Assembly: GCA_035772405.1 (NCBI GenBank)
Contig: JAYKKM010000157.1
Location: 124,001-188,000, forward strand
DNA from: Chrysogorgia sp. JL179-B06
Lineage: Eukaryota; Cnidaria; Anthozoa; Scleralcyonacea; Chrysogorgiidae
Reading direction: 5' to 3'
Length of the DNA: 64,000 nt
The position numbers were made by a program, and so were the translations under genes. The notes beneath the pieces were generated by a model, which did no database searches, was not told where the DNA came from, and saw only the letters and a list, made by a program, of their open reading frames with translations. Below, piece by piece: positions 10,404 through 63,772 of the stretch; positions within the stretch are counted from its first letter, which is position 1, and each line of letters opens with the position of its first letter.

Positions 10404-10504
10404 CCAAACTACGGTGGCCCACAAGGGTCACGGCAAAACCACGCTAACTTTAAAATTAGCGCGGTTTTGCCGTGACACTTGTGGACCACTGGTAGTGGCC
10501 CACA

Positions 10505-10905
10505 TACGGTGGCCCATAAGGGCCACGGCAGCATACAAAGCTCCACGGCAACATACAAAATCCCACGGCAACATACAAAATCCCACGGCAACATACAAAA
10601 TCCCACGGCAACATACAAAGTTTCACGGCAACATACAAAATCCCACGGCAACATACAAAGTTTCACGGCAACAAACAAAATCCCACGGCAACATACAAAG
10701 TTCCACGGCAACAAACAAAGTTTCACCGCACGGCAACATACAAAGTTTCACGGCAACATACAAAGTTCCACGGCAACAAACAAAGTCCCACGGCAACATA
10801 CAAAGTTTCACGGCAACATACAAAATTCCACGGCGGAAGTGTTGAGGGGACTGGATTCAAATGTCAGATCAGAGCGATGGCAAAATGGATATGGCCGACA
10901 TGGAA
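10505..10905. repeat. Left terminal inverted repeat of element A with 15 tandem 20-bp subunits
   Basis: After the terminal TACGGTGGCCCATAAGGGC comes a run of about fifteen 20-bp units of the form CACGGCAACATACAAAGTTC (alternates: AAAATCC, AAAGTTT). It ends in CACGGCGGAAGTGTTGAGG. The homology with the right repeat continues past the start codon of the transposase to about 10905. Such subterminal arrays are candidate transposase-binding sites. Confidence 0.9.
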
Positions 10906-12024
10906 AGTTTAATCCAATCTTATTTTAACCAAGGATATACACATGAAGAAATTCTATCAATTCTTTCACGATTTCACAATATAGAAATCAGCAAAAGGAC
11001 GCTAAAGAGAAGGTTAACATTATATGGTCTAACGAGAAGAAATATCGTCTATGACACGAATGCAGTGCAGGAGAATATTCGTGTTATTTTAGATGGGCCT
11101 GGATGTTTGGGTGGTTATCGAGCAGTCTGGCATGCTCTACGTCTTCAAGGCGTTCAAGTACCTAGAACCGTGGTTCGGACAATGCTTAAGGAACTGGATC
11201 CTGAAGGAAGTCGCCAACGACGAGCTCACCGTTTAAAGAGGAGAGAATACCATAATAGTGGGCCAAATTTTGCTTGGCATGCAGATGGCTACGACAAGCT
11301 GAAGCCATATGGCTTCCCCATTCACGGGTGCATAGACGGATGGAGCAGGAAAATTATTTGGCTTCATGTAACTAGATCGAACAATTTGCCTGACAACATT
11401 GCCACTTATTTTCTCGATGCTGTGGAAGAATTTGATGGCTGTCCTGTCAATCTAATTACTGATCTGGGTACAGAAAATGGAGTAATGGCTGGCATTCAGG
11501 CTTTTTTCAGAGAAGAATCAAGTAGCCACAGGTACGTCTCCTCTCAGCGCAATCAAAGAATTGAGGCATGGTGGTCTATCTTAAGGAAAGGTATGTCAAG
11601 CTGGTGGATGAACTTTTTTAAGGATTTATTGGAACAAGGAATTGTTGACACCACCAATAAGTTACATATGGAATGCCTGTGGTTTTGTTTTGCTGGTTTG
11701 CTGCAACGAAATTTGAATCAAACTAAAATGCATTGGAACACACACTATGTACGGAAGTCCCGACATGATACCGTTAGTGGCAAGCCAAATTTGTTGTACT
11801 ACATGCCAGAAGTACACAATGGTGAAACTGGCCTCATTAAGGAGGTACCAGAAAATGAAATTAACTACGTCAGAAATAATCTTGTTGAAACAGAAGTGCA
11901 GAATGATTATCAAGAATATTTCCAGTATGTCCTTGAGAACTGTAACATTTCTCAACCGACCCATTGGCGTGAAGCGTTACAGTTGTTCCATACCCTTCTT
12001 AATTATGCAGAAAATGGATCTTAA
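10861..12024 (+). CDS. IS3/IS3EU-like DDE integrase-type transposase (387 aa)
   Basis: Intact single-exon gene. Residues 12-60 form a helix-turn-helix-like region (GYTHEEILSIL, ISKRTLKRRL). At 80-115 comes GPGCLGGYRAVWHALRLQGV, which mirrors the GYR block ahead of the catalytic core in IS3 OrfB. The core shows FAWHADGYDKL (Asp142), NLITDLGTENG (Asp201) and QRNQRIEAWWS (Glu235). The Asp-Glu spacing is 33 residues, close to the DD35E arrangement of rve-type transposases. The start at 10861 is favoured because the terminal repeat ends just upstream. The right terminal repeat holds a decayed copy of the same first codons. The gene is convergent with the HECT gene. All three acidic residues are present, so it may be active. 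Confidence 0.88.
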   Translation: MSDQSDGKMDMADMESLIQSYFNQGYTHEEILSILSRFHNIEISKRTLKRRLTLYGLTRRNIVYDTNAVQENIRVILDGPGCLGGYRAVWHALRLQGVQVPRTVVRTMLKELDPEGSRQRRAHRLKRREYHNSGPNFAWHADGYDKLKPYGFPIHGCIDGWSRKIIWLHVTRSNNLPDNIATYFLDAVEEFDGCPVNLITDLGTENGVMAGIQAFFREESSSHRYVSSQRNQRIEAWWSILRKGMSSWWMNFFKDLLEQGIVDTTNKLHMECLWFCFAGLLQRNLNQTKMHWNTHYVRKSRHDTVSGKPNLLYYMPEVHNGETGLIKEVPENEINYVRNNLVETEVQNDYQEYFQYVLENCNISQPTHWREALQLFHTLLNYAENGS

Positions 12025-12179
12025 GACCAAAATATTTAGCAACTACTAAATTAGTCTTTATAAAAAATGAGAAGAAAATCCAAGACATTTTTTTGAGCTG
12101 TTCATATGTTCTTTAAATAAAATGAAATGGTACCAGTAAATGATTGTTATAAAATAATTTGTGTGATTGGTCAATACCT

Positions 12180-12318
12180 GTGTTTGGATCAGGCTATCCA
12201 AACATGGAAATTTCCCACCTTGGAAAATTTTTTAAATGTCCAACGACAAATTAGTTTGTAATTTTATAAAAGAGCCACCTAATGGTTTCCATGTTTGGGT
12301 GACCTGATCCAAACACTT
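12180..12318. repeat. Hairpin MITE between transposase and HECT genes
   Basis: GTGTTTGGATCAGG ... CCAAACATGGAAA in the left arm pairs with TTTCCATGTTTGG ... CCTGATCCAAACAC in the right arm. It lies in the roughly 850-bp gap between the two convergent genes. A (GTAT)n/(TA)n tract follows at 12416-12450. No coding segment was found in 12025-12873. Confidence 0.75.
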
Positions 12319-12873
12319 GGCATTTTGAGGTAAGACCACTTTCACTTATATTCGCTCTACCTTTATGGTATTGAGCACTTTCAACGTTCCGTGAACAACA
12401 TCACATTCGTTTTAGTGTATGTATGTATGTATGTATATATATATATATACAAACCTCTCTGACATACATGTACAGTACATGTAATGTGTATTGCCAATTA
12501 GAAAGTGGATATTGACCCTGTGAAAAGTGCACTACATAACTAAACATAACAGTTTAAGGAAGATATTTTTCCTTCATCTGTCATTCTCATGAATCCCTCT
12601 CTAACAACATTTGCAGCCATATTTAATTTTTGTGACTGTTTCCTTGAAATACAGTACAAGAGTAGTGATATCAAGTAATTAGATTTGTTAATGATATCAT
12701 CATACTTTATATACTCAGTATGAAAATAAAATGCATATACTGTATATAATTTAAACATGAGATAATACATAATTTAAAAACTTAACATGATTTAACCAGT
12801 ATGCAAATAAAATGCATATATTATAATATTAATACATGAGATAATAGTTAAGAATTCAACATGTCATAGACAA

Positions 12874-15229
12874 TCAACATTTTCCAAATCCTTGACAATC
12901 TAATAGTGCTTGGGACATAATGCTGCTAAATTCTTCAGTCTCTACAATACCTCTGGGTAGAAAAAGGGCTAAAGAGCATGTTGATGACCAAGGGAACCTT
13001 TTCATGTTTTCATCCTGATTATAAAATGCAATAGAGATCTTCTGGTCAAAGCCAAGGGGTGGAACTGCATCAGCACCAGTGATGAAAACCAACATATTTT
13101 CCAGGCACAGGTTCTCAACCTGACCTTCATCTAGATCTTGAAGGAAAACTTCTAAGCAATATATTGTTTTTTCTTCTGAGTTTCTGTGGTTAGAACCCTC
13201 AGGTGAAAAATCAACTTGGTACAAGCTTCTGAAAGCAGCAAGATCAAGCTTTGTTTGGGTATCACACAATAATGTTTCAAATAAAGTGGAAGAACTCTTA
13301 ACCAGGTCACCCAACTTCCCAATTGTGTTCATACCATCCCAGAATTGTTCCATTTCAGCATGCACTGAAAATATTTCATTTTTCTTGGTGACACTGGATG
13401 TATATATCCTTGAGTAACCATATCTGGCAATAACATCAGATTTATTCTGAATGAGATTGTTAAAATCCTTTGGGGTTGAGCAAGAATCCACATCTTTAAG
13501 AATTCCTTTTAGTTCCTCATCTCCAACTGTCTCTCTAGCTGCATTGAAGCAGACAGAATGACCTTTTGTGATACAAAATGCTTCTTTGGCTAAACATCTG
13601 CATCCTGGTCCTCCTTGAAGGATGCTCCATGCTATTAATTTGCCAGCAAGCTCATATTTTTTATTGATGAGAAGCTCTAAATCATGAGAAAACCATTTCC
13701 CCTGAAATACACCCATACTTTGAAGTGCTCTCATCAGCAATCGTAAATACTCCCTTTTTGGACCTCCATTATCAACAGCATCTTCACCACTGAAGGTTAC
13801 TTTAACAGGCTTAAGGAAGGAGAATCTCTTTCTCTGAATAGCTCTCAGGGTGGTGGTGAGAATTTCCTTTCGATTGATTAAGATGTTGATGGAATCTTCA
13901 CTATTTGCTGCTTGTAGGTTGCTTGCTATAAAATTACCAATAACATCAGCATTTGGTACTTGTTCATAGGTTAAGCCACAAGATGTTTCATCATGACTGC
14001 TCTGGTCTTTAATGCTAGCTGCAATGGCTGCAACAAGTTCATTATCATCATCCTCACATGATTCATCATCAAGTAAGTCCACATAATTGCCATAACACTG
14101 TGATACAGGCTGATCTCCACTGACTGATTCTTGCAATGTCTGACCAGGCGAAACAGATGTAGAAGCTGAGACAGAGGAATCACAACTTTCAGAGTATCTC
14201 TTTTTGGATATTACACTGATGGAAGGAGACACAGATACTTCACCGTCAGGAGTACTCGTCATTTCTTGATCTACAAAGTTAAAAGGGTTTAGAATTTACA
14301 AAATTTTCACATACAGTATGAACAGAATACGATATCTGAAACCCTCCAAATTTGATGCAGCTAATGATTTCAATTACACTTCTTTTAATTATAAATACCT
14401 ACCTTTTGTATACCTCTGTTCATCTGTAAATGAATCTTCATATGTTGTCAAGTCATCAGTTTCACAAAGGTAAAGAACTATTCTCTTATAATCTTTTCCA
14501 TAGTCATTTCGATACTTTTCCAGATCAAAGAAATGTTGTGTCTGGCCAGGCAAAAATTGGGCATTGGTTCCATCTTCATAGACCAGAGAATAAGACTTGG
14601 AAATATCAAAACATCGGTCAAATTTCTTCCACTTATCCACACCTTCACCCAAGACTTGTTTACAAGTGGATGACTTTGGGATACGGATGGGTAGACGTTT
14701 ACCTCTCACAGTTTTAAGTAATCCATTTTCAAGCTTTTTTATCCCAATGTTGATGTTCACCTCTTCACTTTGTTGACTTTTTTTCTTTTTCGATCTAAAC
14801 TCTTGGCTGCCACGCTGTTTACTGGTTTTCGCTTTAATATAATCGTTGAGCGGCACGACTCGACGTTTCGTACACTCCTCGATGGTCGATTGATTCGATT
14901 GTGGTCGCCCAAACGTAAAGGAAGAATTAGCTGCTGGGCTAGAGCTTGTAGTTGTGGATGGTGACCACTCGGGAGGTCCAGTTGTGGCCTGGTTGCACCG
15001 ACAATTCCAACAAAAGCGAGCGCCAAGCCTCACTTTTACCGAACACCCACTGCAAAACCTAGTAAAAACATAACAGGTTAAAAAAAGCCTCAGCATATCA
15101 CAAAAAATGCTAATAAATCAATTCCCATACTTACACAGTATCTCCTGATTTCAGAGATTTGCCTCCTTGCTCTGAACTTTCACGAGCCGGTAAATACAGT
15201 ACAGCTCCGGGCTCTTTCCGGTCCGCCAT
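12874..15229 (-). CDS. Zinc-ribbon / UIM / HECT-domain E3 ubiquitin ligase carried by element A (715 aa, 3 exons)
   Basis: Exons 15229-15135, 15058-14403 and 14270-12874 join in frame across two short GT-AG introns (76 and 132 bp) to give 715 codons. Residues 34-51 form a CxxC-x10-CxxC zinc ribbon. A Ser/Lys-rich linker follows. About residue 326-341 there is an acidic LVAAIAASIKD helix, a good ubiquitin-interacting motif. About 400-715 is a HECT domain, opening with VKVTFSGEDAVDNGGPKREY and ending with FPWSSTCSLALFLPRG. The catalytic thioester Cys is about residue 682. HECT enzymes take ubiquitin from an E2 onto this Cys and pass it to a substrate. The C-lobe resembles G2E3-like proteins. 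No break was seen. The gene lies wholly inside element A, which is unusual. Confidence 0.85.
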
Positions 15230-15998
15230 CTTGTTCAGAAGAGGCTGGGTACGAGTGTGCCCACGATACAACTGCGAAAACTGGTTACGATAATAAACTT
15301 AGTCACAAATTTACAACAGTGTTATTACTGTGAACCAATACAACATTTCTTACCCCACAAGATTTGTTCAAAAAATCAGATGCTCAGAAATGCCCACTAA
15401 CCAAGGATAATTAAATACTGTCTCCAGAGTCTCGAAAGACTCGAGTCCGACATTCGGAACAGATTCAACAAGAACACAATATAGCTTGTAGCCTTGTAAG
15501 ATGATGATCTCCCTATATTTCGGCAAAATATTTCATATTGGCCAGTACCCTCGACAACATACTTAAAGGTTATAAAACGTGTTGTGCTACGTAGGCAGTG
15601 TAGAAATACAAATCAAATATCTAAAAAGGTTGGTGTACTGCCGCAATAGTACGTAAGTTGTCTTACGTTTTAAGCGGCGAAGCCCTTCGTCAGAGAGTGA
15701 AAGGGCCTTCGCTTGAAACGTTAGACTACTTACACGCTATTTCGGCGGGTTAGTTTGATGCTTTGCTCAAAACTAACTAGTATACAAACGCCTTAACATT
15801 CAAACATTGCCCACCATTGGGGGTAAGAAATGTTGTATTGGTTCACAGTAATAACACTGTTGTAAATTTGTGACTAAGTTTATTATCGTAACCAGTTTTC
15901 GCAGTTCGAACGCAGCAAGTATCGTGGGCGCACTCGTACCCAGCCTCTTCTGAACAAGATGGCGGACCGGAAAGAGCCCGGAGCTGTACTGTATTTAC
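15190..15998. repeat. Inverted duplication of the HECT gene's 5' end
   Basis: About 175 bp covering the first 13 codons and upstream region of the HECT gene (15190-15365) recur inverted at 15825-15998. They include a second ATGGCGGACCGG start at 15959 facing the other way. A roughly 460-bp spacer lies between. The duplicate is cut at codon 13 by the hAT element, continues for about 10 bp beyond it (17577-17586), and then runs into the right terminal repeat. The spacer holds a smaller hairpin (15635-15755) seen elsewhere in the window. Confidence 0.85.
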
Positions 15999-17568
15999 CA
16001 GGGCGCTTATATATAGGGCGGTGAAACGGCAATGGGCGAGCTGATCGATGTGTGATGCGGGGACTGGTTATGAGTTTGAACCAGTGGTTTGAACCTCTGG
16101 GAAAAACCAAAACAAACATGGCGGGTAATGCAATTGTAGAATACATGAATACATGTAGAAGACACTGAATTGTGTTTGGAGGAGGATATTATGGATAGCG
16201 AGGTTAACCTTGCTGATCAATATTACTTTTCTGTTAATTCCGCTACTATATTTTCTGATATAACTAACAAGAATTCGGAGTTATTCCTGCAAACGCTCGC
16301 TAAAATTTACGACCCACTGTCAAACGAGAAGAAAGTAAACAATGGCCTTGAACGCATTGTTAGACGTTACAAAAAATTGTATTATAAAAGAGTTTCTGAA
16401 AAGTATATTAGCGATATTTAAACTTTGTTTTTCCGAAACAGAATTGGATAGGACTTGGCTCTGTTTTTATAAAACCATTTTCAAAATCAGCGACAGGTTG
16501 CTGTCTATCGTTGCCATTTTGGTTGATAAGGGTCTTGAACCATTTTATTTCGCTTACAAGGAAAATAATTTGGGCGGCGTATAACCTCTGGGACCAGGCT
16601 AGCCTTTTGCCGTATTAGTATCACATATTTTTCTTTTTAAAAGTAAAGTTTAATCACTCTCAAATTAAAAAATGAAAAGAAAAACAACTTGCTTACGCCA
16701 TTTTATCTTTGTATGCACACGTTATCACTCGGCCATGTTCGATAGAATACATATCTTGCATTGAATTTGTGGTTTGTCATTTTTGAAGTTGAATATTATG
16801 AAACTATCAACTCAAATTTTCCTTTTTTGAATAAAACGTAACAAGGAGTCATGTCATCTATCTGATAACAAATTTATAAGGCGCGGACAACATTTTATAA
16901 CTGCATGCGCTGGGTATACATCCAACATGTTGTATTTTGATAAAATGATCAAGGAGTGACATTTGTTTAGATTTTACGATTATTAATATGCAATGCTTAA
17001 ATAAACACCATAAAGTCATTGATATTATTACCAAGAATAATGACATAACGAAATTAACACTTGTGTTTACTCATCTTCCAACAACTAAGGGCATAAATAC
17101 GAAAGGGTTAAGCCATAATAATGCACCAATCCCGATCGTTTTATCTGCAAACCATCAACTCCGATTTTTATGAAAATTTAAGAATATAACCGTACTAATG
17201 TTATCTTCAACATACCTGAATATCTTGCCGCGGTCAAACAGGAAACATGCTTTGATTTCATGGTGAAATTTCCCTCCATAGAAGTCATCGAAAGAAGCAG
17301 TCGTTATCCATAATCAGATCTCTATAGTACAACTTGTTAAGCAACATAAGCCCCCATACGTGAAAAGAATCAGTACTTAACATGTACATGATAAAATATC
17401 CGTCCAAAATTACATAGTGAGGGAAACACCAGCCATAATTTAACAGTACTCGAAATATGACTTTTGCACGCGTTTTCCTCAAACAGACGCTCGTGCCAGT
17501 CCACTTCCGCATCACACATCGATCAGCGGATATGAGCGCGTTGCACCGCCCTATATATAAGCGCCCTG
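15999..17568. mobile_element. Non-autonomous hAT-type element inside element A
   Basis: The termini are CAGGGCGCTTATATATAGG and its reverse complement, with about 70 bp of terminal similarity that also includes TGATCGATGTGTGATGCGG. The flanks are a perfect 8-bp duplication GTATTTAC (15991-15998 and 17569-17576). CAGGG ends with an 8-bp duplication are the hAT signature. The interior is AT-rich with two short frames (16170-16421 and 16342-16584) lacking any transposase motif, so mobility would depend on another element. Confidence 0.9.
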
Positions 17569-17576
17569 GTATTTAC

Positions 17577-18021
17577 CGGCTCGTGAACTTTCGCTGTCGG
17601 CCATATTGCATCTGATATTTAGAACCAGTCCCCTCAACACTTCCGCCGTGGAAATTTGAATTTGTTGCCGTGAGATATTGTATAGTAAGTTGCCGTGGAA
17701 CTTTGTATTTTGCCGTGGAACTTTGTATATTGCCGTGGAACTTTGTATGTTGCCGTGGGATTGTGTATGTTGCCGTGGAACTTTGTATGTTGCCGTGGGA
17801 TTTTGTATGTTGCCGTGCGGTGAAACTTTGTTTGTTGCCGTGGAACTTTGTATGTTGCCGTGGGATTGTGTATGTTGCCGTGGAACTTTGTATGTTGCCG
17901 TGGGATTTTGTATGTTGCCGTGGAACTTTGAATGTTGCCGTGGGATTTTGTATGTTGTCGTGGAACTTTGTATGTTGCCGTGGAGCTTTGTATGCTGCCG
18001 TGGCCCTTATGGGCCACCGTA
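17577..18021. repeat. Right terminal inverted repeat of element A
   Basis: Mirror of 10505-10905: a run of 20-bp units (read here as GTTGCCGTGGAACTTTGTAT) from about 17640 to 18000, then GGGCCACCGTA at the tip. The inner edge contains a decayed, inverted copy of the transposase start region (GTCGGCCATATTG, CCCCTCAACACTTCCGCCG). Frames crossing the array on either strand are repeat artefacts. Confidence 0.9.
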
Positions 18022-18260
18022 CCCACAAGTGTCACGGCAAAACCGCCCTAAATTCTCACGGCAAAACCACGCTAATTCTTACGGCAAATTTGCTATTATC
18101 ACGGCAAAACCACGCTAATTCTTACGGCAAATTTGCTATTCTCACGGCAAAACCACGCTAATTCTTACGGCAAATTTGCTATTCTCACGGCAAAACCACG
18201 CTAATTCTTACGGCAAAACCACGCTAAAAACCACGGCGGAAGTGGAACCCACGGCGGAAG

Positions 18261-18957
18261 TGCAGGTAACAACCTACTGATGGCCCTGATCAGCTTGTGA
18301 TCAGCTTGTGCAGAGAGCCTTCTTCGCCAGCGCCTCCAGCTCCAGGTCGGCGGCTGCGTGCTTCTTCGCCCTCTTCTTCGGCTGGCTCGGTGACTCTGCT
18401 AGGGTGTCGTCATGCATCAGGGCGCGCATCATCTGCTTGCAGTGCTGCAAGGAGCACCAGCAGCCTCAGTCTTCTAAGTCTTCTCTGGTTGTCTTTCATC
18501 TTGATGTGGACAGCTTGAACATCAGGTAGCGAATGAGATCCGCCCAGGTTGTACGGCAGTAGCACCGCACTCGCATAGGGACGCATCGCACTTGCATGGC
18601 AGTCGCACCGGGCTCGCATATACGCTCGCATGAGATTCGCACAGGTTGCACGGCAATCCGATGGATGTCGCACGGAAGTCGCACGGGTCTGCTGGGAGTC
18701 CCTTCAGACTCCCGTGCGACCTGACTGCCGTGCGACCCCCATGCGACCAATGCAAACTGTGCGACAGCCGTATGGAAATTTTCAACATTTGAAAAAACTC
18801 GCACGGGCATGCGACCCGTCCGAATTACACATGACACCCCTACAACCTGTGCGAATCATCAACAGACTGCCGTGCGACTCCCGTACTTACTCCCGTACCG
18901 ATTTGTACGGTGGCCCACCGTAGAAACTGGTCAGCGGGTAAACGACATTGATTATGC
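18261..18957. other. GC-rich cargo of element B, with a CCGTGCGAC-type repeat cluster
   Basis: The segment is clearly richer in G+C than its surroundings. On the minus strand 18510-18297 reads a lysine/alanine-rich frame (SQPKKRAKKHAAADLELEAL) with a nuclear-localisation-like cluster, possibly a captured exon fragment. From 18540 to 18905 the sequence is a mesh of CCGTGCGACTCCCGTAC and inverted GTCGCACGG motifs, ending in TTGTACGGTGGCCCACCGTAG, which resembles the tip of the A/B family. It may be the relic of a further nested element. No gene is claimed. Confidence 0.5.
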
Positions 18958-19113
18958 TGCACTTCCGCCGTGGGTTCCACTTCCGCCGTGGTTTTTAGCG
19001 TGGTTTTGCCGTAAGAATTAGCGTGGTTTTGCCGTGAGAATAGCAAATTTGCCGTAAGAATTAGCGTGGTTTTGCCGTGAGAATAGCAAATTTGCCGTAA
19101 GAATTAGCGTGGT

Positions 19114-19777
19114 TTTGCCGTGATAATAGCAAATTTGCCGTAAGAATTAGCGTGGTTTTGCCGTGATAATAGCAAATTTGCCGTAAGAATTAGCGTGGTT
19201 TTGCCGTGAGAATTTAGGGCGGTTTTGCCGTGACACTTGTGGGCCACTACCAGTGGTCCACAAGTGTCACGGCAAAACCGCGCTAATTAAGTTAGCGTGG
19301 TTTTGCCGTGACCCTTGTGGGCCACCGTACCAAACAAACAAACTCAAAATTTAACAAATCGAGATCTGGTCAGCTATACATAGTTCGGTAAAAGGACTGG
19401 GCACGAGTAAACGCAAGAGGAAATAATGTCAAGAAGTAGTGCTGCTTGCCGTGAGAATAGCAAATTTGCCGTAAGAATTAGCGTGGTTTTGCCGTGATAA
19501 TAGCAAATTTGCCGTAAGAATTAGCGTGGTTTTGCCGTGAGAATTTAGGGCGGTTTTGCCGTGACACTTGTGGGCCACTACCAGTGGTCCACAAGTGTCA
19601 CGGCAAAACCGCGCTAATTAAGTTAGCGTGGTTTTGCCGTGACCCTTGTGGGCCACCGTACCAAACAAACAAACTCAAAATTTAACAAATCGAGATCTGG
19701 TCAGCTATACATAGTTCGGTAAAAGGACTGGGCACGAGTAAACGCAAGAGGAAATAATGTCAAGAAGTAGTGCTGCC
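19114..19777. repeat. 332-bp direct tandem duplication across the right end of element B
   Basis: 19114-19445 and 19446-19777 are almost identical. Each contains the last about 216 bp of element B, the CCAAAC duplication and about 116 bp of outside flank ending AAGAAGTAGTGCTGC. The copy therefore arose after B inserted, by a segmental event, or it is an assembly duplication. Confidence 0.93.
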
Positions 19778-28469: not shown

Positions 28470-29880
28470 AATCGTACATAAATCGAAATTAGTCTCCCTA
28501 CTGACTGACCTCATGAAAGAAATAGATCTGAAGCCGTTACATCCGAAAAACAAGATTCTCCTATACAGTCGTTACGTTCTTTCAAAACTCTCATGGCATC
28601 TCACTATAGCAACAATTCAAAAGACCTGGATTTCTGAAAACCTGGATTCAGTTTTCAAACAATATATTCGAAAATGGCTTGAGGTACCTATTTCTGGATC
28701 ACTTAGTAACATTTACCTAACCAGTAACAAATTTGGTCTTAATATCATCCCCCCATCAACTAAATTCATACAGTGTCAAACAATCATCCGCAGTGTTTTG
28801 AAATCATCTCCAAATGAATCAATAACCCACCTATGGAAATCGTCGTCTAATCATACTAACATTCAATATGATCAATATACATCGACAAAAGAAGTAATAA
28901 AGTCATTCCGTGAAACTCAAGAAGAAAAATTGGAAAATCAGTTAAAATGTCAAGGTTCATTCTTCACCAGCATTTCAAAATTCTCTCTACCCCAAGTAAA
29001 TTCGATTTGGCCAACCTGTCAATCCAAACTACCAAAAAATATTTTCAACTTCACCATTCGTTACATAAACAATTCGCTACCAACCCGTAAAAATCTTCAA
29101 AAATGGGGACTCTCGTCGTCTTCTGAATGCTCATTCTGCCTTAAACCTGAATCTTTGTTACACGTTGTTGCTGGCTGCAGTTCCTATCTCGATCGTTTTA
29201 CTTGGAGACACGACTCAATCCTAAATTTTATTGCTAATAACCTCCCATCAGAATATATTCAAACTATTTATGCTGACTTGCCATCATTCTCTAATCCCTC
29301 TATTATTACTGGTGATGACTATCGTCCTGATCTAATAATTTTGACCAAAGACAATTTTCTGTATGTACTCGAACTAACCGTCGGATATGAGACTAACCTA
29401 AGAAAAAATATACAGCGCTCAAAATATAAAGAGATGATCATAGAACAAAAGAAAAAATTCCAGTCGGTAAAGTTCGTAAATCTCTCAATCAGTGCACTCG
29501 GTGTTTTTGAAAAAGAATCTTCGGTTTTTATAGAAATGTTGGAACGTTTGAACTTAGACAAGGCTCATGTTAAATATATCATTAGGAAAATCATTAATAT
29601 TGCAATAAGGACGACATACTACGTTTTCTGTTCTAGAAACAAGGATTGGACGAATCCAGATTTAATGAACTTCTAATATCTTACTTTTTATATCATATAT
29701 TTATGTAAATGTGTAGTGTAATATATAACCATTGTAGTATATCAAGTAGCCAATTGTAAATTACCTTTAACAGTGAGATTTGCAGTTGTAAGTATATAAA
29801 AAAATTCAATAAAGTTTTCATTATTATTATTATTATTTATTATTGTTATTATTTATTATTATTATTATTATTTATTATTA
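28468..29880 (+). mobile_element. 5'-truncated R2-group (REL-endonuclease) LINE
   Basis: The element starts inside the coding region. It contains the long frame 28513-29676 and a 3' UTR with AAGTAGCCAATTGTAAATTACC and AATAAAG, and ends in (ATT)n at 29820-29880. The same 3' end appears at 25310-25395. Confidence 0.8.
28513..29676 (+). CDS. C-terminal half of an R2-like retrotransposon polyprotein
   Basis: The 387 codons have no interruption. Residues 206-222 form a C-x2-C-x7-H-x4-C zinc knuckle (CSFCLKPESLLHVVAGC). Residues about 268-295 read YRPDLIILTKDNFLYVLELTVG, a PD...ExT restriction-like endonuclease core. The reverse-transcriptase palm is missing because the copy is 5' truncated, so the first Met is not the true start. 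Lack of stops over almost 1.2 kb implies a recent insertion. The gene is unrelated in detail to the complete element that follows, although both end in ATT runs. Confidence 0.75.
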   Translation: MKEIDLKPLHPKNKILLYSRYVLSKLSWHLTIATIQKTWISENLDSVFKQYIRKWLEVPISGSLSNIYLTSNKFGLNIIPPSTKFIQCQTIIRSVLKSSPNESITHLWKSSSNHTNIQYDQYTSTKEVIKSFRETQEEKLENQLKCQGSFFTSISKFSLPQVNSIWPTCQSKLPKNIFNFTIRYINNSLPTRKNLQKWGLSSSSECSFCLKPESLLHVVAGCSSYLDRFTWRHDSILNFIANNLPSEYIQTIYADLPSFSNPSIITGDDYRPDLIILTKDNFLYVLELTVGYETNLRKNIQRSKYKEMIIEQKKKFQSVKFVNLSISALGVFEKESSVFIEMLERLNLDKAHVKYIIRKIINIAIRTTYYVFCSRNKDWTNPDLMNF

Positions 29881-29905
29881 TTATTTATTATTATAATTAT
29901 TAATC

Positions 29906-32900
29906 ATGGCGAGTGGTTCAAATACGGCGAGCGCGATAGCTAACGCAATAAGAAGGCCAGGAAGGTTAAAATGGACCGAGCAAATGAACCAAGATTGTTT
30001 GGATTGCAAAAGAAATGCCCTTATCATGGTTTCATCGGTGAATCCGCCTCTAAACGAGAATGGGAGAAAAAAAGGCTATATCAAAGTCATGAAAGAGCTT
30101 TGGGAGAGACGAGGTTATGCAAACCTAAGATTGACAAGTCAAAACCTAAGAGATCAAGCAGCAAGACTAGAGAAAACATTAGCAAACTTGTCAGAGAATA
30201 CTGGTGGTAATGGAGAAATTAGATTAGAGAGGGAACTAGCGAACTCAGCGAGAGAAAGTCGAGATGAAATTGAAGCTGAAAATCGTAATGTCGAAGCGTT
30301 GATAACACCAAATGCAAATTCGGGAACTTTGAGCCTAAATTTGCATGAAACGGTTGACAGGCGACAAACAAGAAATTCCCATGCGTCTGATAACCAACTC
30401 GAAGACGACACACAAGAAAAAGCAACTGAAGAAAGAGCCCCAACGCGTTTTCCAGAATATAACCCAATGAACAAGCCTACTATGGTTGAATGGGGTAAAG
30501 ATAGCGACGGTGGCCCGATAATAATCCAAACATCATGTATTATACAGGCATATAATGAAATCATATCATGGAGAAAAAATGCTTTCCTTGTCCCATATGG
30601 GAAAATAGGAAGAGAGTTCATTGATCAATTAACGGCGCATATTGACGACTGGAATATTGAATCTAACAAGCAGCATATAGCTCTAAAAGCGTTCTTTGTT
30701 CTCCTAGCGGTCGGACTCCAAAAGCCTGGTCAGAAGTCCAAAGCTAAAGACCACAAAGTTTGTTTGGAGAAACGACTGGCTCTATGGAAAGAAGGTCAAA
30801 TTGACAAGCTAATAAGGGAAGGACGAATGATTCAAAAGCGTCTTGGAAAAGGAAAGAAATATGACCTTCCAAACAGAGCAAAGATTTTTGCTAAACTCGT
30901 AATGGAGGGCCAAATAAATTCAGCCATGCGTTTTCTAAATGATGGGGATTGTGAAAGTGTACTGCCCTTAACAGACGATGTTATGTTGCAGCTCAAACAG
31001 AAACATCCTGAAGCACAAGAAGCAAAGCCTGAAGTAATACTTCATGGTCCTGTAGAAGAAATACCGGAAAGCATATACATCGGAATAAATGCAGAAATGA
31101 TACGAGAAACTGCCCTGAGAACGAAAGGGTCTGGTGGTCCGTCAGGTATTGATGCAAATGGTTTTAAAAGAATACTTGCCTGTAAATCGTTCAAGCAATC
31201 CTCTACAAGGCTCTGTGAGGCACTAGCCACCCTTGCAAGGGCTTTGTGTACAAAACATGTTGATCCAACTTCTATTGAATCAATATTAGCAAGTCGTTTA
31301 ATTCCGCTAGACAAAGGAGCAGGTGCAGTTAGACCGATTGGTGTGGGAGAGGTTATCAGAAGAGTAATAAGCAAGTGTGTCATGAAAGTGGTTAAGCAAG
31401 ATGTGATCGAAGCCAGTGGTTCACTCCAGGTTTGCGCCGGTCAAGCATCGGGTAGCGAGGCAGCAATCCACGCAATGCGTAATATATTCGAGGCAGATGA
31501 CACAGATGCAGTCTTGCTTATCGATGCTTCCAACGCCTTTAATACCCTGAATAGAGCTGCTGCTTTGCATAATACAAGAGTGCTCTGCCCCACTGTTGCA
31601 ACATACGCGACGAATACATACCGACTGCCATCGCGATTGTTTATCGTTGGTGGCAAAGAGCTAAAATCGTCAGAAGGCATGACGCAAGGAGATCCATTAT
31701 CCATGGCCTTATACGCTATCAGTCTTCAACCACTAATTTCATATTTGCAAGGTACAAGTCACACAAAGCAATGCTGGTACGCCGATGACGCGAGTGGAGC
31801 AGGAACTATAACAGAAATAAAGCAGTGGTGGAATACCTTATCGGATTTTGGTCCTGACTATGGTTATCACCCAAATGACAAGAAATGCTGGCTGATTGTC
31901 AAACCAGAGAAAGAAGAATTAGCAAAAGAAGCTTTTCGAGATACAGCCATTAACATCACCACACAAGGGCAAAATCACTTGGGAGCGGTAGTAGGATCAA
32001 GATCATATCTATCTGAATATGTTGACGGTAAAGTAGAAGAATGGGTAAAGGAGATAACAAAATTAGCGGAATTTGCAGTATCACAACCTCAAGCATGTTA
32101 CGCCGTTTTTACCTATGGTTTGAAACATCGTTGGACGTACTTTCTCCGTACTTTGCCAGATATCCAAGATCTGTTAGAACCATTGGAGACTGCACTTGTC
32201 AAGGTTCTTATACCAGCCATAACAGAGCACAACACCACCGAGCTTGACCGTGAAGTCTTAGCATTACCGGTACGAATGGGCGGTCTAGGACTCATAAATC
32301 CTTGCGAAGAAGCAGCCACAGAGTACGCAGCATCGATACAGATTACAGCACCTCTGGTGGAAAGAATTACATCACAGACACAAGAATTGCCGGATGACTC
32401 ACGTATACAAGAATTGAAGAAAATCGCGAGAAAGGGGAAAAACTGTGCTTTAAATGAAAAAGTTAAAATCTTGAAGAATGCAGTATCTGAAAAGACAAAA
32501 AGATCATTGGAATTTGCAGCCGAAAAAGGAGCTTCCACTTGGCTAACAGTGATTCCAATTTCAGAGATGAATTTCAACCTAAATAAGAGGGAATTCCGTG
32601 ATGCCTTAAACCTAAGATATGATTGGAGTATCAGCGACAGCCCTTCGATGTGTGTATGTGGGGAGACGTTTACTATAGATCACGCAATGATATGTAAACG
32701 CGGAGGCTTCATAATTCAACGCCACAATGAACTAAGAGATCTGGAAGCTGAACTCTTGAACATGGTATGCAACGACGTTGAGATTGAACCCACTCTACAA
32801 AATGTCAATGGAGAGACCCTAAACCCGGGAGCAAATATATCTGCTGGAGCGCGGCTAGATGTTCATGCAAGGGACTTTTGGGAAAGACAAAGATCTGCCT

Positions 32901-33295
32901 TTTTTGATGTCCGGGTTTGTCACCCAAACGCAGAATCTTATCAAGATCTAAGTCCCAAACAAATTTACAGAAAGCACGAAAACGAGAAGAAACGTATGTA
33001 TGGCAAAAGAGTGACAGAAATCGAGCAAGGAACGTTCACACCACTCGTTTTCACTACAACAGGAGGAATGGGAGATGAATGCTTACGATACCACAGCAGA
33101 CTTGCTGAATTGATAGCAGACAAGAAGGGAGAGCTATACTCACACACAATTTCGTGGATAAGAGCAAAGATATCATTCTCCATCGTTAGATCTGCCTTGT
33201 TATGTTTAAGAGGCTCGAGAACAATTAGAAGAGTACAATCCAACATTAAAGACATAGACTTAGATATAGAGACCGTGATGGCAAGAATTCATTAG
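29906..33295 (+). CDS. Complete R2-like non-LTR retrotransposon polyprotein (1129 aa): Myb, reverse transcriptase, REL endonuclease
   Basis: One uninterrupted frame. Residues 18-75 ([11 protein letters not shown] ... [22 protein letters not shown]) form a Myb/SANT-like DNA-binding domain. The reverse transcriptase spans about 400-720 with [44 protein letters not shown] (first Asp about 539), [14 protein letters not shown] and [10 protein letters not shown] (catalytic Asp627-Asp628). Residues 916-930 hold a zinc-binding [15 protein letters not shown]. About 980-1010 reads [10 protein letters not shown] ... FFDVRVCHP, a restriction-like endonuclease core. All key residues are present. This may be a potentially active element. 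The Met at 29906 directly follows an (ATT)n tract, so the true 5' end is short or absent. Confidence 0.85.
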
Positions 33296-61746: not shown

Positions 61747-63772
61747 CAGTGGCGCCGGCAAGGGGGGGCGAGGGGGGGCAGCCGCCCCCCCAACATTCTC
61801 CAGAGTGGGTTTTTGGATTCGTCCAAATCCGGTATCGTAGGGGGGGGGGGGGGGGGGGCGGTGTGTAAATATTTGGTTGTCAAGTGTACAGTTGTGTGTA
61901 AATGTAATGCGTAACTTGCGGTTAATGGTTGCGTGTAATGGCTAATGCGTAACTTTCTCGATTTTTGGCTTCTTTTATTGTGCTTTGGCTCCAAATAATT
62001 CTATTTGGCCCATTCCAATGCACCGCACCATGAATGAGAAGCTTCGCCGTTGGTCGGATCACTATAAACCAATCAGAAAATGAAAATCATCCGCGAAACT
62101 GAGACGAAGGCGAAGATTGCAGCTGAAGCAAAGGGTCTTTTGAGTAATATTGATTTTGAATTTGTTTTATCATTGAAAGTGAGTATACTTACAGTATATA
62201 AATGATTTCATTTTCTAAGTACATCAGCACTATGTCTATATCGTATGGTTCGCATTGGGAAAACCGAAAACGACCCTGAAAAGTTTTGTTTTCGGTTTTG
62301 AGTTGAAAATTTTCTGTATATATTTTGAGATATATTTCTATTATTTATTTATTTGATACTTTTTCAGGTTCTCGACAAAGTTCTTAACCTCAGCAAAGGT
62401 GTGTCAGACAAACTACAATCAGAGGATCTCGACGTAGTGTCAGGTTGTGATCGGGTTGAAGATCTGCTTGTTGCCATAAAATAACTTCGTACCGAGGACA
62501 AGTTCGAGACGTTCTGGACTGCCACTGTTGAAACATGTGAAGAGCTCAACATTGAAACTCCGATGGAGAAGCGTCAAAGGAAGATACCGGCACGACTGGA
62601 CGACCATCCTGAGACAGCTGTGCGGCTTGAACCCAAAGATACATTTAGAGTTGGGTTCTACTTTTCAGTAAGTATTTGTGCGAATCGTTTAATTTTATCT
62701 CTCCCACACTGTTCGAAACTTTCTATCAGATCAGTATTAAATTGCAGATATCTTTAACTATCCTACTGTTTTCACAGGTTCTTGATCTCATGATCAATTC
62801 AATCGAGACGAGGTACGATGCAGAAAACCGATCCATCTTACGGGGACTTGGATATCTTCATCCCAAACGCATCACGACGCCTGATTCTTTCGAGCATGTC
62901 AAACACGCCGCTGATTGGTTCGAAGATGACATCAACGCTGATGCTCTTGAACTGGAGATGAATTTCATTCGTTCCTCGAAGATGATCAAAGATATCCTGG
63001 CCAAGGAAACGAAAGAACGAAAGTCGTCGTTGGTTGATTTATACCGCGAACTTCTTCAAGAACGCGAATGCTTCCCCAATTTGTCAAAAATTGTTAAGAT
63101 TGCCCTTACTCTCCCTTTGACATCAGCATTTGCTGAGAGATCATTTTCCAAGCTGAAGATAATAAAAAATCGCCTGAGGTCGACGATGAGGCAAGATCGA
63201 CTCGACTCGCTGATGCTCATGTAGTCATGTCCGTGGAATCTGACATTTGTCGGGACCTCGACATCGAAGGACTCGTTGAACGATTTACCGACTCAGTTCC
63301 CCGAAGATGGAACTTGTACTAATTATTTATTATAACATTAAATTCTTCATTTCATTCTTCAGATTATATTGAAAAATACATTTGATTCATATATTGTATG
63401 CCGAAATAATTTATGTTCCGCTTTCCCAAAATAGTGATTTATTAAAACCTTTATGTTTCTCTCAAAGTGCCTCCAAAACGCAGGAAATGCGGTTTTAGAC
63501 ACCCAAAATTCAAAAAATTTCCGGGGGAAATTCCAAATTTAGGCATTACCTTGACGTTTTATGACCTTCAGAATTGCGCAAAATCTTCCCTCAAATGCAG
63601 GAAATGGCATTTCCGAGACTCTAGAGACTCTAGTTTTCAAAAAATTTCAGGGGGGGCCTGCCCCCGGACCCCCCTAGGAAGCGTACGACTCGCGCCTTCG
63701 GCGCTCGATACGCGCCTCCGGCGCGGTATACCAATTTTGCCCCCCCAAAAATAAATCCTGCCGGCGCCACTG
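61747..63772 (+). mobile_element. hAT element, internally reduced, with recognisable transposase
   Basis: Tips CAGTGGCGCCGGCA and TGCCGGCGCCACTG, flanked by a perfect 8-bp duplication ATGATACA (61739-61746 and 63773-63780) inside the 81-bp array. C-rich and G-rich tracts lie just inside each end. The 3' region (63590-63760) is the source of the dispersed GGCATTTCC/GCGCCTTCGGCGC repeats seen near 4.4 and 50.0 kb. Confidence 0.93.
62080..63320 (+). pseudogene. hAT transposase, C-terminal half, one stop and one frameshift
   Basis: Exons 62080-62178, 62368-62667 and 62778-63224 splice in phase 0 with canonical sites. The product reads VLDKVLNLSKGVSDKLQ, FETFWTATVETCEEL, VLDLMINSIETRYD and the hAT dimerisation block LTLPLTSAFAERSFSKLKII and KNRLRSTMRQDRLDSLMLM. 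An in-frame TAA sits at 62482-62484. A stop at 63222 hides a shifted continuation (DIEGLVERFTDS) to about 63320. The BED finger and most of the catalytic part are missing, so it is inactive. It resembles ZMYM1/hAT-type proteins. Confidence 0.85.

Follow-up and report, generated by a model that had tools for sequence, protein, structure and literature searches.

To our knowledge, few eukaryotic DNA transposons carry regulatory enzymes of their own. A stretch of 64,000 nucleotides from Chrysogorgia sp. JL179-B06 (assembly GCA_035772405.1, contig JAYKKM010000157.1, positions 124,001 to 188,000 of the forward strand; hereafter the window) contains a transposon, element A, in which a gene for a HECT ubiquitin ligase lies beside the transposase gene. 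Is this ligase a regular part of the transposon, or a host gene captured by chance? The related transposons examined in the same genome carry the same pair, and the ligase therefore looks like a regular part of the element rather than a chance passenger. The standing layout of IS3EU-type transposons in this genome very probably consists of two convergent genes, a transposase starting from the left end and a HECT ligase starting from the right end, with the ligase serving as an accessory factor.

Element A spans positions 10505–18021 of the window (7,517 bp). Its inverted TACGGTGGCCC ends, at 10505 and 18021, form terminal inverted repeats that are identical over 55 bp by end comparison (10505–10559, forward; 17967–18021, reverse), and direct repeats of CCCACA at 10499–10504 and 18022–18027 make up a perfect 6-bp target-site duplication. 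Inside the ends, a repeat search located subterminal arrays of a 20-bp unit (CCACGGCAACATACAAAGTT), with about 15 copies on the left (10523–10834, forward) and about 16 copies, inverted, on the right (17685–18003, reverse). The transposase open reading frame (ORF; 10861–12024, forward) encodes 387 amino acids and matches the Pfam integrase core PF24764 (E 2e-31), and its D142, D201 and E235 are invariant across 27 alignment rows, the window row included. The initial annotation, made from the window alone, had proposed both the bounds of the element and an intact DDE transposase within them; the perfect ends and duplication bear out the former, and the open frame with its three acidic residues the latter. 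With a 55-bp perfect inverted repeat, a 6-bp duplication and 12 further complete elements built alike, this layout is beyond chance.

According to the main text of PMC10045372, IS3EU transposons have TA..TA ends, 6-bp target duplications and an integrase-type DDE transposase without the HHCC motif. Element A and all 12 relatives with both ends located have TACGG..CCGTA ends, within the superfamily pattern TAYGG..CCRTA, and all six duplication bases matched in each of the 12, as with CCCACA in the window. Since the end search itself required TA[CT]G[GA]..[TC]C[AG]TA and at least four of six matching duplication bases, the independent evidence consists of the further 15 bases and the duplications only. 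On reading the window transposase, a single Cys was seen before D142, so there is no CxxC. The transposase alignment had no match among PDB sequences at E 0.01. The ends, the duplication and the transposase all fit, and we accordingly assign element A to the IS3EU-type cut-and-paste DNA transposons.

The HECT gene lies on the reverse strand, convergent to the transposase. Its three exons (15229–15135, 15058–14403 and 14270–12874), whose splice sites were assigned by eye, encode 715 amino acids with no internal stop. Exon 3 contains a UIM-like motif and the HECT domain; alone it scores 44.2 bits with Pfam HECT (cut-off 23.9), and it carries Cys682 in an FPWSSTC..LP motif, at a catalytic-Cys position that is invariant in 17 alignment rows. 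The UIM-like motif is present in nine of the 17 rows by our own pattern match, with no Pfam hit. Exon 2 has no Pfam match; it contains a zinc-ribbon-like CxxC...CxxC at residues 34–51 (by eye), and a relative, P0123, reaches zinc-ribbon models only below their cut-offs. The structure model of exon 2 (mean pLDDT 69.5, one well-predicted stretch) suggests a ubiquitin-like domain: Foldseek often matched it to beta-grasp folds (ubiquitin, Atg8/GABARAP, RBD), though weakly (best ubiquitin E 3e-3), and a mitoribosomal protein, poor in TM-score, was the single match below 0.001. Among solved structures, the ligase alignment matches AREL1 best by sequence (6jx5, E 8e-16), over the HECT part.

The same pair recurs throughout the genome (781 Mb, 522 contigs). 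A transposase search gave 112 rows from the best 107 of 1,818 first-look candidates scored; because only the best candidates were scored, absences from the lists are not evidence. For the 20 next-best transposase loci we read 10 kb of surrounding DNA each, and five lower-ranked loci (43–52% identity) were read as well. All 20 next-best loci contain HECT-family matches, and these always run opposite to the transposase, with none on the same strand. Among the five lower-ranked loci, a convergent ligase was found in three by tblastn, in L031 by a Pfam score of 30.4 bits (cut-off 23.9), and in L034 by homology only (43% identity over 331 amino acids to the ORF of L031; at 16.3 bits, L034 itself stays under the Pfam cut-off). 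The further loci thus have a convergent HECT gene in 24 of 25 cases by direct match and in the 25th by homology. Both ends were located in 12 of the 20 loci, with 20-bp identical terminal inverted repeats and perfect 6-bp duplications, and the HECT gene lies between the ends in all 12; in the remaining eight, a left end was found in seven and a right end in one within the 10 kb. As controls, neither the window outside element A nor 36.9 kb beyond the ends of the 12 elements gave any match to the HECT query set. The initial annotation had proposed that the ligase travels with the transposon, naming other transposase copies that consistently lack the HECT gene as evidence to the contrary. Such consistent lack was not seen in the loci read, and the proposal is strongly supported by the 12 two-ended relatives and by the pair counts given below. 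L031 (3499–4650, forward) and L034 (2370–3431, reverse) share a third, shorter HECT type ending in HTCG..LEVPSTYQ, convergent to the transposase.

A genome-wide coordinate tally gives the same picture. The 112 transposase rows less five second pieces of listed loci make 107 places. HECT places were listed by Pfam (130 rows), by exon 3 of the window (95 rows) and by the divergent relative P0143 (82 rows); these merged into 103, 80 and 51 loci, respectively, with 210 loci listed overall. In the Pfam list, 27 rows were dropped by hand as further pieces of genes, some up to about 17 kb apart, none of them less than 10 kb from a listed transposase. Within 10 kb, we counted at least 61 convergent transposase/HECT pairs and one other, with 0.63 pairs of any orientation expected. 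At this distance, a convergent HECT is listed for at least 57 of the 107 transposase places, the median gap being 1,066 bp. By list, the convergent pairs number 8 (Pfam), 23 (exon 3) and 36 (P0143), and a 15-kb tally with the Pfam list gave 8 against 0.42 expected.

The relationship was also followed from the ligase side. When 4–4.5 kb on the 3' side of six HECT loci was read, five had a convergent integrase-type transposase; four of the six had been picked for a recurring HECT match, and the other two, L039 and L040, were among the best exon 3 matches and look like copies of one family. The transposases at L035, L039 and L040 belong to a more remote integrase type; each occupies two or more ORFs and shows only about 29–38% identity to the query set, so the partnership of ligase and transposon may span more than one transposase clade. 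The initial annotation had further suggested that such elements may explain the large families of HECT genes, putatively G2E3-like, in some invertebrates. This holds in part for the present genome, where at least 61 of the 210 listed HECT loci, a lower bound, stand beside a transposase, as do five of six in the reverse reading; the support is confined to this genome.

Several results weigh against a standing two-gene layout. Among the matches listed, 50 of the 107 transposase places are without a HECT gene; the five of these 50 that were read as DNA (L023, L030, L031, L032 and L034) all have one, L034 by homology only. Conversely, for 149 of the 210 listed HECT loci the transposase list has no entry within 10 kb, some of these loci presumably being ordinary host HECT genes, and the HECT locus L037 has no transposase within 4.5 kb. 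The ligases are also unequal. Two main types occur, the canonical window type (STC) and a divergent type in many relatives, and the divergent ligases are at or below the Pfam HECT cut-off, with no match for P0133, P0139 and P0141–P0143 and 13.1 bits for the L024 ORF. Between transposase families, HECT and transposase distances are uncorrelated (Mantel r -0.10, p 0.70; 11 families, including that of the window). The window ligase is short of 10 residues between I550 and F551, a stretch present in all 16 relatives aligned with it. For the window transposase family, the rows listed contain no second close copy, the next best being 60% identical.

These points can be set beside further properties of the ligases. 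The divergent ligases keep the N-terminal module and a Cys at the catalytic place, and for the model of P0143 (mean pLDDT 73.8, pTM 0.44) all 50 listed PDB matches are HECT ligases (best E 6e-9), with TM-scores only up to 0.46. The distance comparison covered 21 elements in 11 transposase families, with a convergent HECT in all 11; with close copies included, the distances do correlate (r 0.79). As the correlation is missing at family level, strict co-descent is not part of our claim; the mismatch may stem from drift, from saturation or from ligases being exchanged. Recent copies point to constraint. Across four independent close-copy pairs from three families, the HECT genes differ by 22 synonymous and 12 non-synonymous changes (omega 0.15, p 5e-8 against neutrality), and five transposase pairs differ by 10 and 12, respectively (omega 0.31, p 0.008). 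Single-pair values are noisy, ranging from 0.09 to 0.69 for HECT and from 0 to 0.96, with several undefined, for the transposase. All four HECT pairs are of the divergent ligase type, the window family having no close copy to include; the estimates used the longest open ligase pieces, dropped windows below 60% identity and counted multiply changed codons roughly.

The DDE transposase is read inward from the left end and the HECT E3 ligase inward from the right end; in the mechanism that we propose, the latter would act as an accessory factor of the element. The initial annotation had put forward, as a speculation, that the ligase may tune the stability of the transposase or of a host repressor, or may modify chromatin at target sites. 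The ligase presumably helps the element, because it is both constrained and retained together with the transposase. Its N-terminal module and UIM-like motif most likely serve to bind ubiquitin or ubiquitin-like partners, and the ligase would then ubiquitinate a protein that limits transposition. For the substrate, a host silencing, chromatin or repair factor is our leading candidate, carrying about even weight; the element's own transposase, whose level or turnover would be controlled, is a somewhat weaker candidate, and any other target is rather unlikely. A rival form of this mechanism, in which the ligase acts on the transposase rather than on host factors and keeps its level low for the survival of the host, appears unlikely on balance. 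Both genes do occur together in the loci read, and self-limitation encoded by the element itself is known in other transposons; the convergent layout, however, would fit either substrate.

It is very unlikely that the ligase is passive cargo, that is, a host HECT gene captured by chance and moved along unused. The 10-residue deletion in the window ligase would agree with this, as would the differing ligase types beside related transposases and the family-level disagreement of distances. Set against these are the convergent HECT at the 25 further loci (one by homology) and in every one of the 11 families of the 21 elements, and the low omega among recent copies of three families. Chance capture of the window ligase was rejected, being largely refuted by the repeated layout, and a story of a single element was rejected likewise. 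The accessory-factor reading also has to be weighed against domestication, in which some pairs would now be host genes with fossil ends. We regard this as highly improbable: the lack of a second close copy of the window transposase family is in its favour, but 12 relatives have perfect 6-bp duplications and HECT copies are 98–100% identical within families, and such duplications together with near-identical copies indicate recent movement of the relatives. There is next to no chance that the HECT genes, numerous as they are (at least 210 loci listed), are merely common repeats or targets near IS3EU insertions and outside the element, since in all 12 elements with both ends located they lie inside the inverted ends and the perfect duplications, which refutes the idea for these, with no HECT match outside in the stretches read and 61 convergent pairs to one other against 0.63 expected.

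The two-gene transposon with an accessory ligase is thus our preferred reading for the group; the window copy itself is probably impaired, as its sequence suggests. The initial annotation had called the three-exon ligase intact, and its open frame, HECT domain and catalytic Cys stand; the N-lobe of the HECT domain is incomplete. The absent residues number 10 in 11 of the relative rows and nine in five, and in the P0143 model the matching residues 436–444 sit in a helix (429–461). With this deletion, the window ligase is open but probably impaired; it is a HECT member by descent, and its activity is doubtful. The right part of the element is also disturbed, by a 1,570-bp insert and by an inverted duplication that includes the start of HECT exon 1, while the transposase frame is open. 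Self-comparison places the first arm of the duplication at 15189–15360 (reverse), covering the 5' region and start of exon 1 (15135–15229), and the second, 92% identical, at 15817–15999 (forward). The insert (15999–17568) is flanked by an 8-bp duplication (GTATTTAC), and the first 20 bp of its ends are identical; from these ends we take it to be a hAT-like non-autonomous element. It holds a 90-amino-acid ORF with no convincing Pfam match. Overall, element A probably represents a damaged copy within a group that has been active recently.

A larger element (10410–19329) with ends of this type encloses element A; it has 41-bp perfect ends (TACGGTGGCCCACAAGGGTC..), 43-bp subterminal repeats and the duplication CCAAAC. 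Outside element A, this outer element has no match to the window transposase or HECT query set, and it is likely a non-autonomous relative that element A jumped into. A 331-bp tandem duplication (99%; 19115–19776) takes in its right end and flank. Elsewhere in the window, a long reverse-transcriptase ORF of 1,132 amino acids (29897–33295, RVT_1) adjoins an ORF with a zf-RVT match (28471–29676), and a fragment with a hAT C-terminal dimerisation domain lies at 62649–63224. Window-type HECT relics were seen at C307:1177556, C263:5725196–5726173 and C281:299406 of genome G000; they are 62–83% identical in their best pieces, most have stops, and no transposase is listed within 10 kb of them.

Relatives of both proteins exist beyond this genome. 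A protein search returned 2,079 transposase relatives (best 87%), the best 120 of which were examined, and at least 20 ligase relatives (best 75%), the ligase search having scored the best 8,000 candidates by common words. Named relatives include a transposase of the coral Oculina patagonica and a ligase of the octocoral Dendronephthya gigantea; three fish entries (Triplophysa, Sinocyclocheilus) are more distant HECT proteins. The HECT-family proteins P0142 and P0143 and the transposases P0027 and P0118 come, pairwise, from contigs of identical size (240212 and 192101), and about 0.0001 such coincidences would be expected for long contigs. Chance does not explain this match. In viral contigs, searches by the transposase and by the alignments of both proteins gave nothing confirmed. 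Among genome contigs, a single locus turned up, on a 3.8-kb contig of a metagenome-assembled genome from a sponge symbiont; it holds the remnant of a transposase split by an intron and shows no match to HECT.

If the ligase is a conserved partner, transposons would seem to make direct use of the ubiquitin system, and their response to host silencing would become open to experimental test. It would also partly explain the large HECT gene counts in annotated genomes. For gene-family studies, this implies that some HECT genes belong to mobile elements and not to the host.

No paper containing both 'IS3EU' and 'HECT' was found in the literature searched, with Repbase outside the search and a database-only or unpublished note possible, and no transposon with a HECT gene was recognised from titles and the beginnings of abstracts. 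RAG1/RAG2-like transposons also have two convergent genes, one of them a transposase, and RAG1 includes a RING ubiquitin-ligase domain. In these transposons, however, the ligase is a domain of the transposase, it is RING and not HECT, and the transposase belongs to a different family. AREL1-type ligases resemble the ligase of element A over the HECT part, and the likeness is known for that part only. Giant transposons with parts of the ubiquitin pathway, namely Burro (MATH/TRAF) and Helentrons with an OTU-like protease, are described in the available text of PMC6431247. They are alike in being mobile elements with ubiquitin-related accessory domains, but are retroelements or rolling-circle elements, and that text makes no mention of a HECT ligase ('hect' 0 times).

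The closest systems are IS3EU transposons themselves. Element A resembles those of PMC10045372 in its ends, 6-bp duplication and type of transposase, and the HECT gene is a feature of element A, 'hect' occurring 0 times in the main text of that paper. The TET+ IS3EU elements of rust fungi and Tuber, as presented in the available text of PMC12730594, have an alpha-kinase gene opposite to the transposase and a TET/JBP gene between. They share with element A the superfamily name, the TAYGG..CCRTA ends (in the rust families), the 6-bp duplications and a further gene on the opposite strand. In contrast, the opposite-strand gene is an alpha-kinase in the fungi and a HECT ligase in element A, and neither 'hect' nor 'ubiquitin' occurs in that text (0 times each). 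Taken together, the fungal kinase and the cnidarian ligase would point to a slot for a protein-modifying enzyme in the superfamily. This belongs to a wider reading whose truth we judge to be evenly balanced: a whole branch of IS3EU in animals would be a two-enzyme system, its autonomous elements pairing the DDE transposase with a convergent HECT ligase of their own without which transposition would be less efficient or less well tolerated by the host, and transposons would carry a large share of the HECT genes that have expanded in such genomes.

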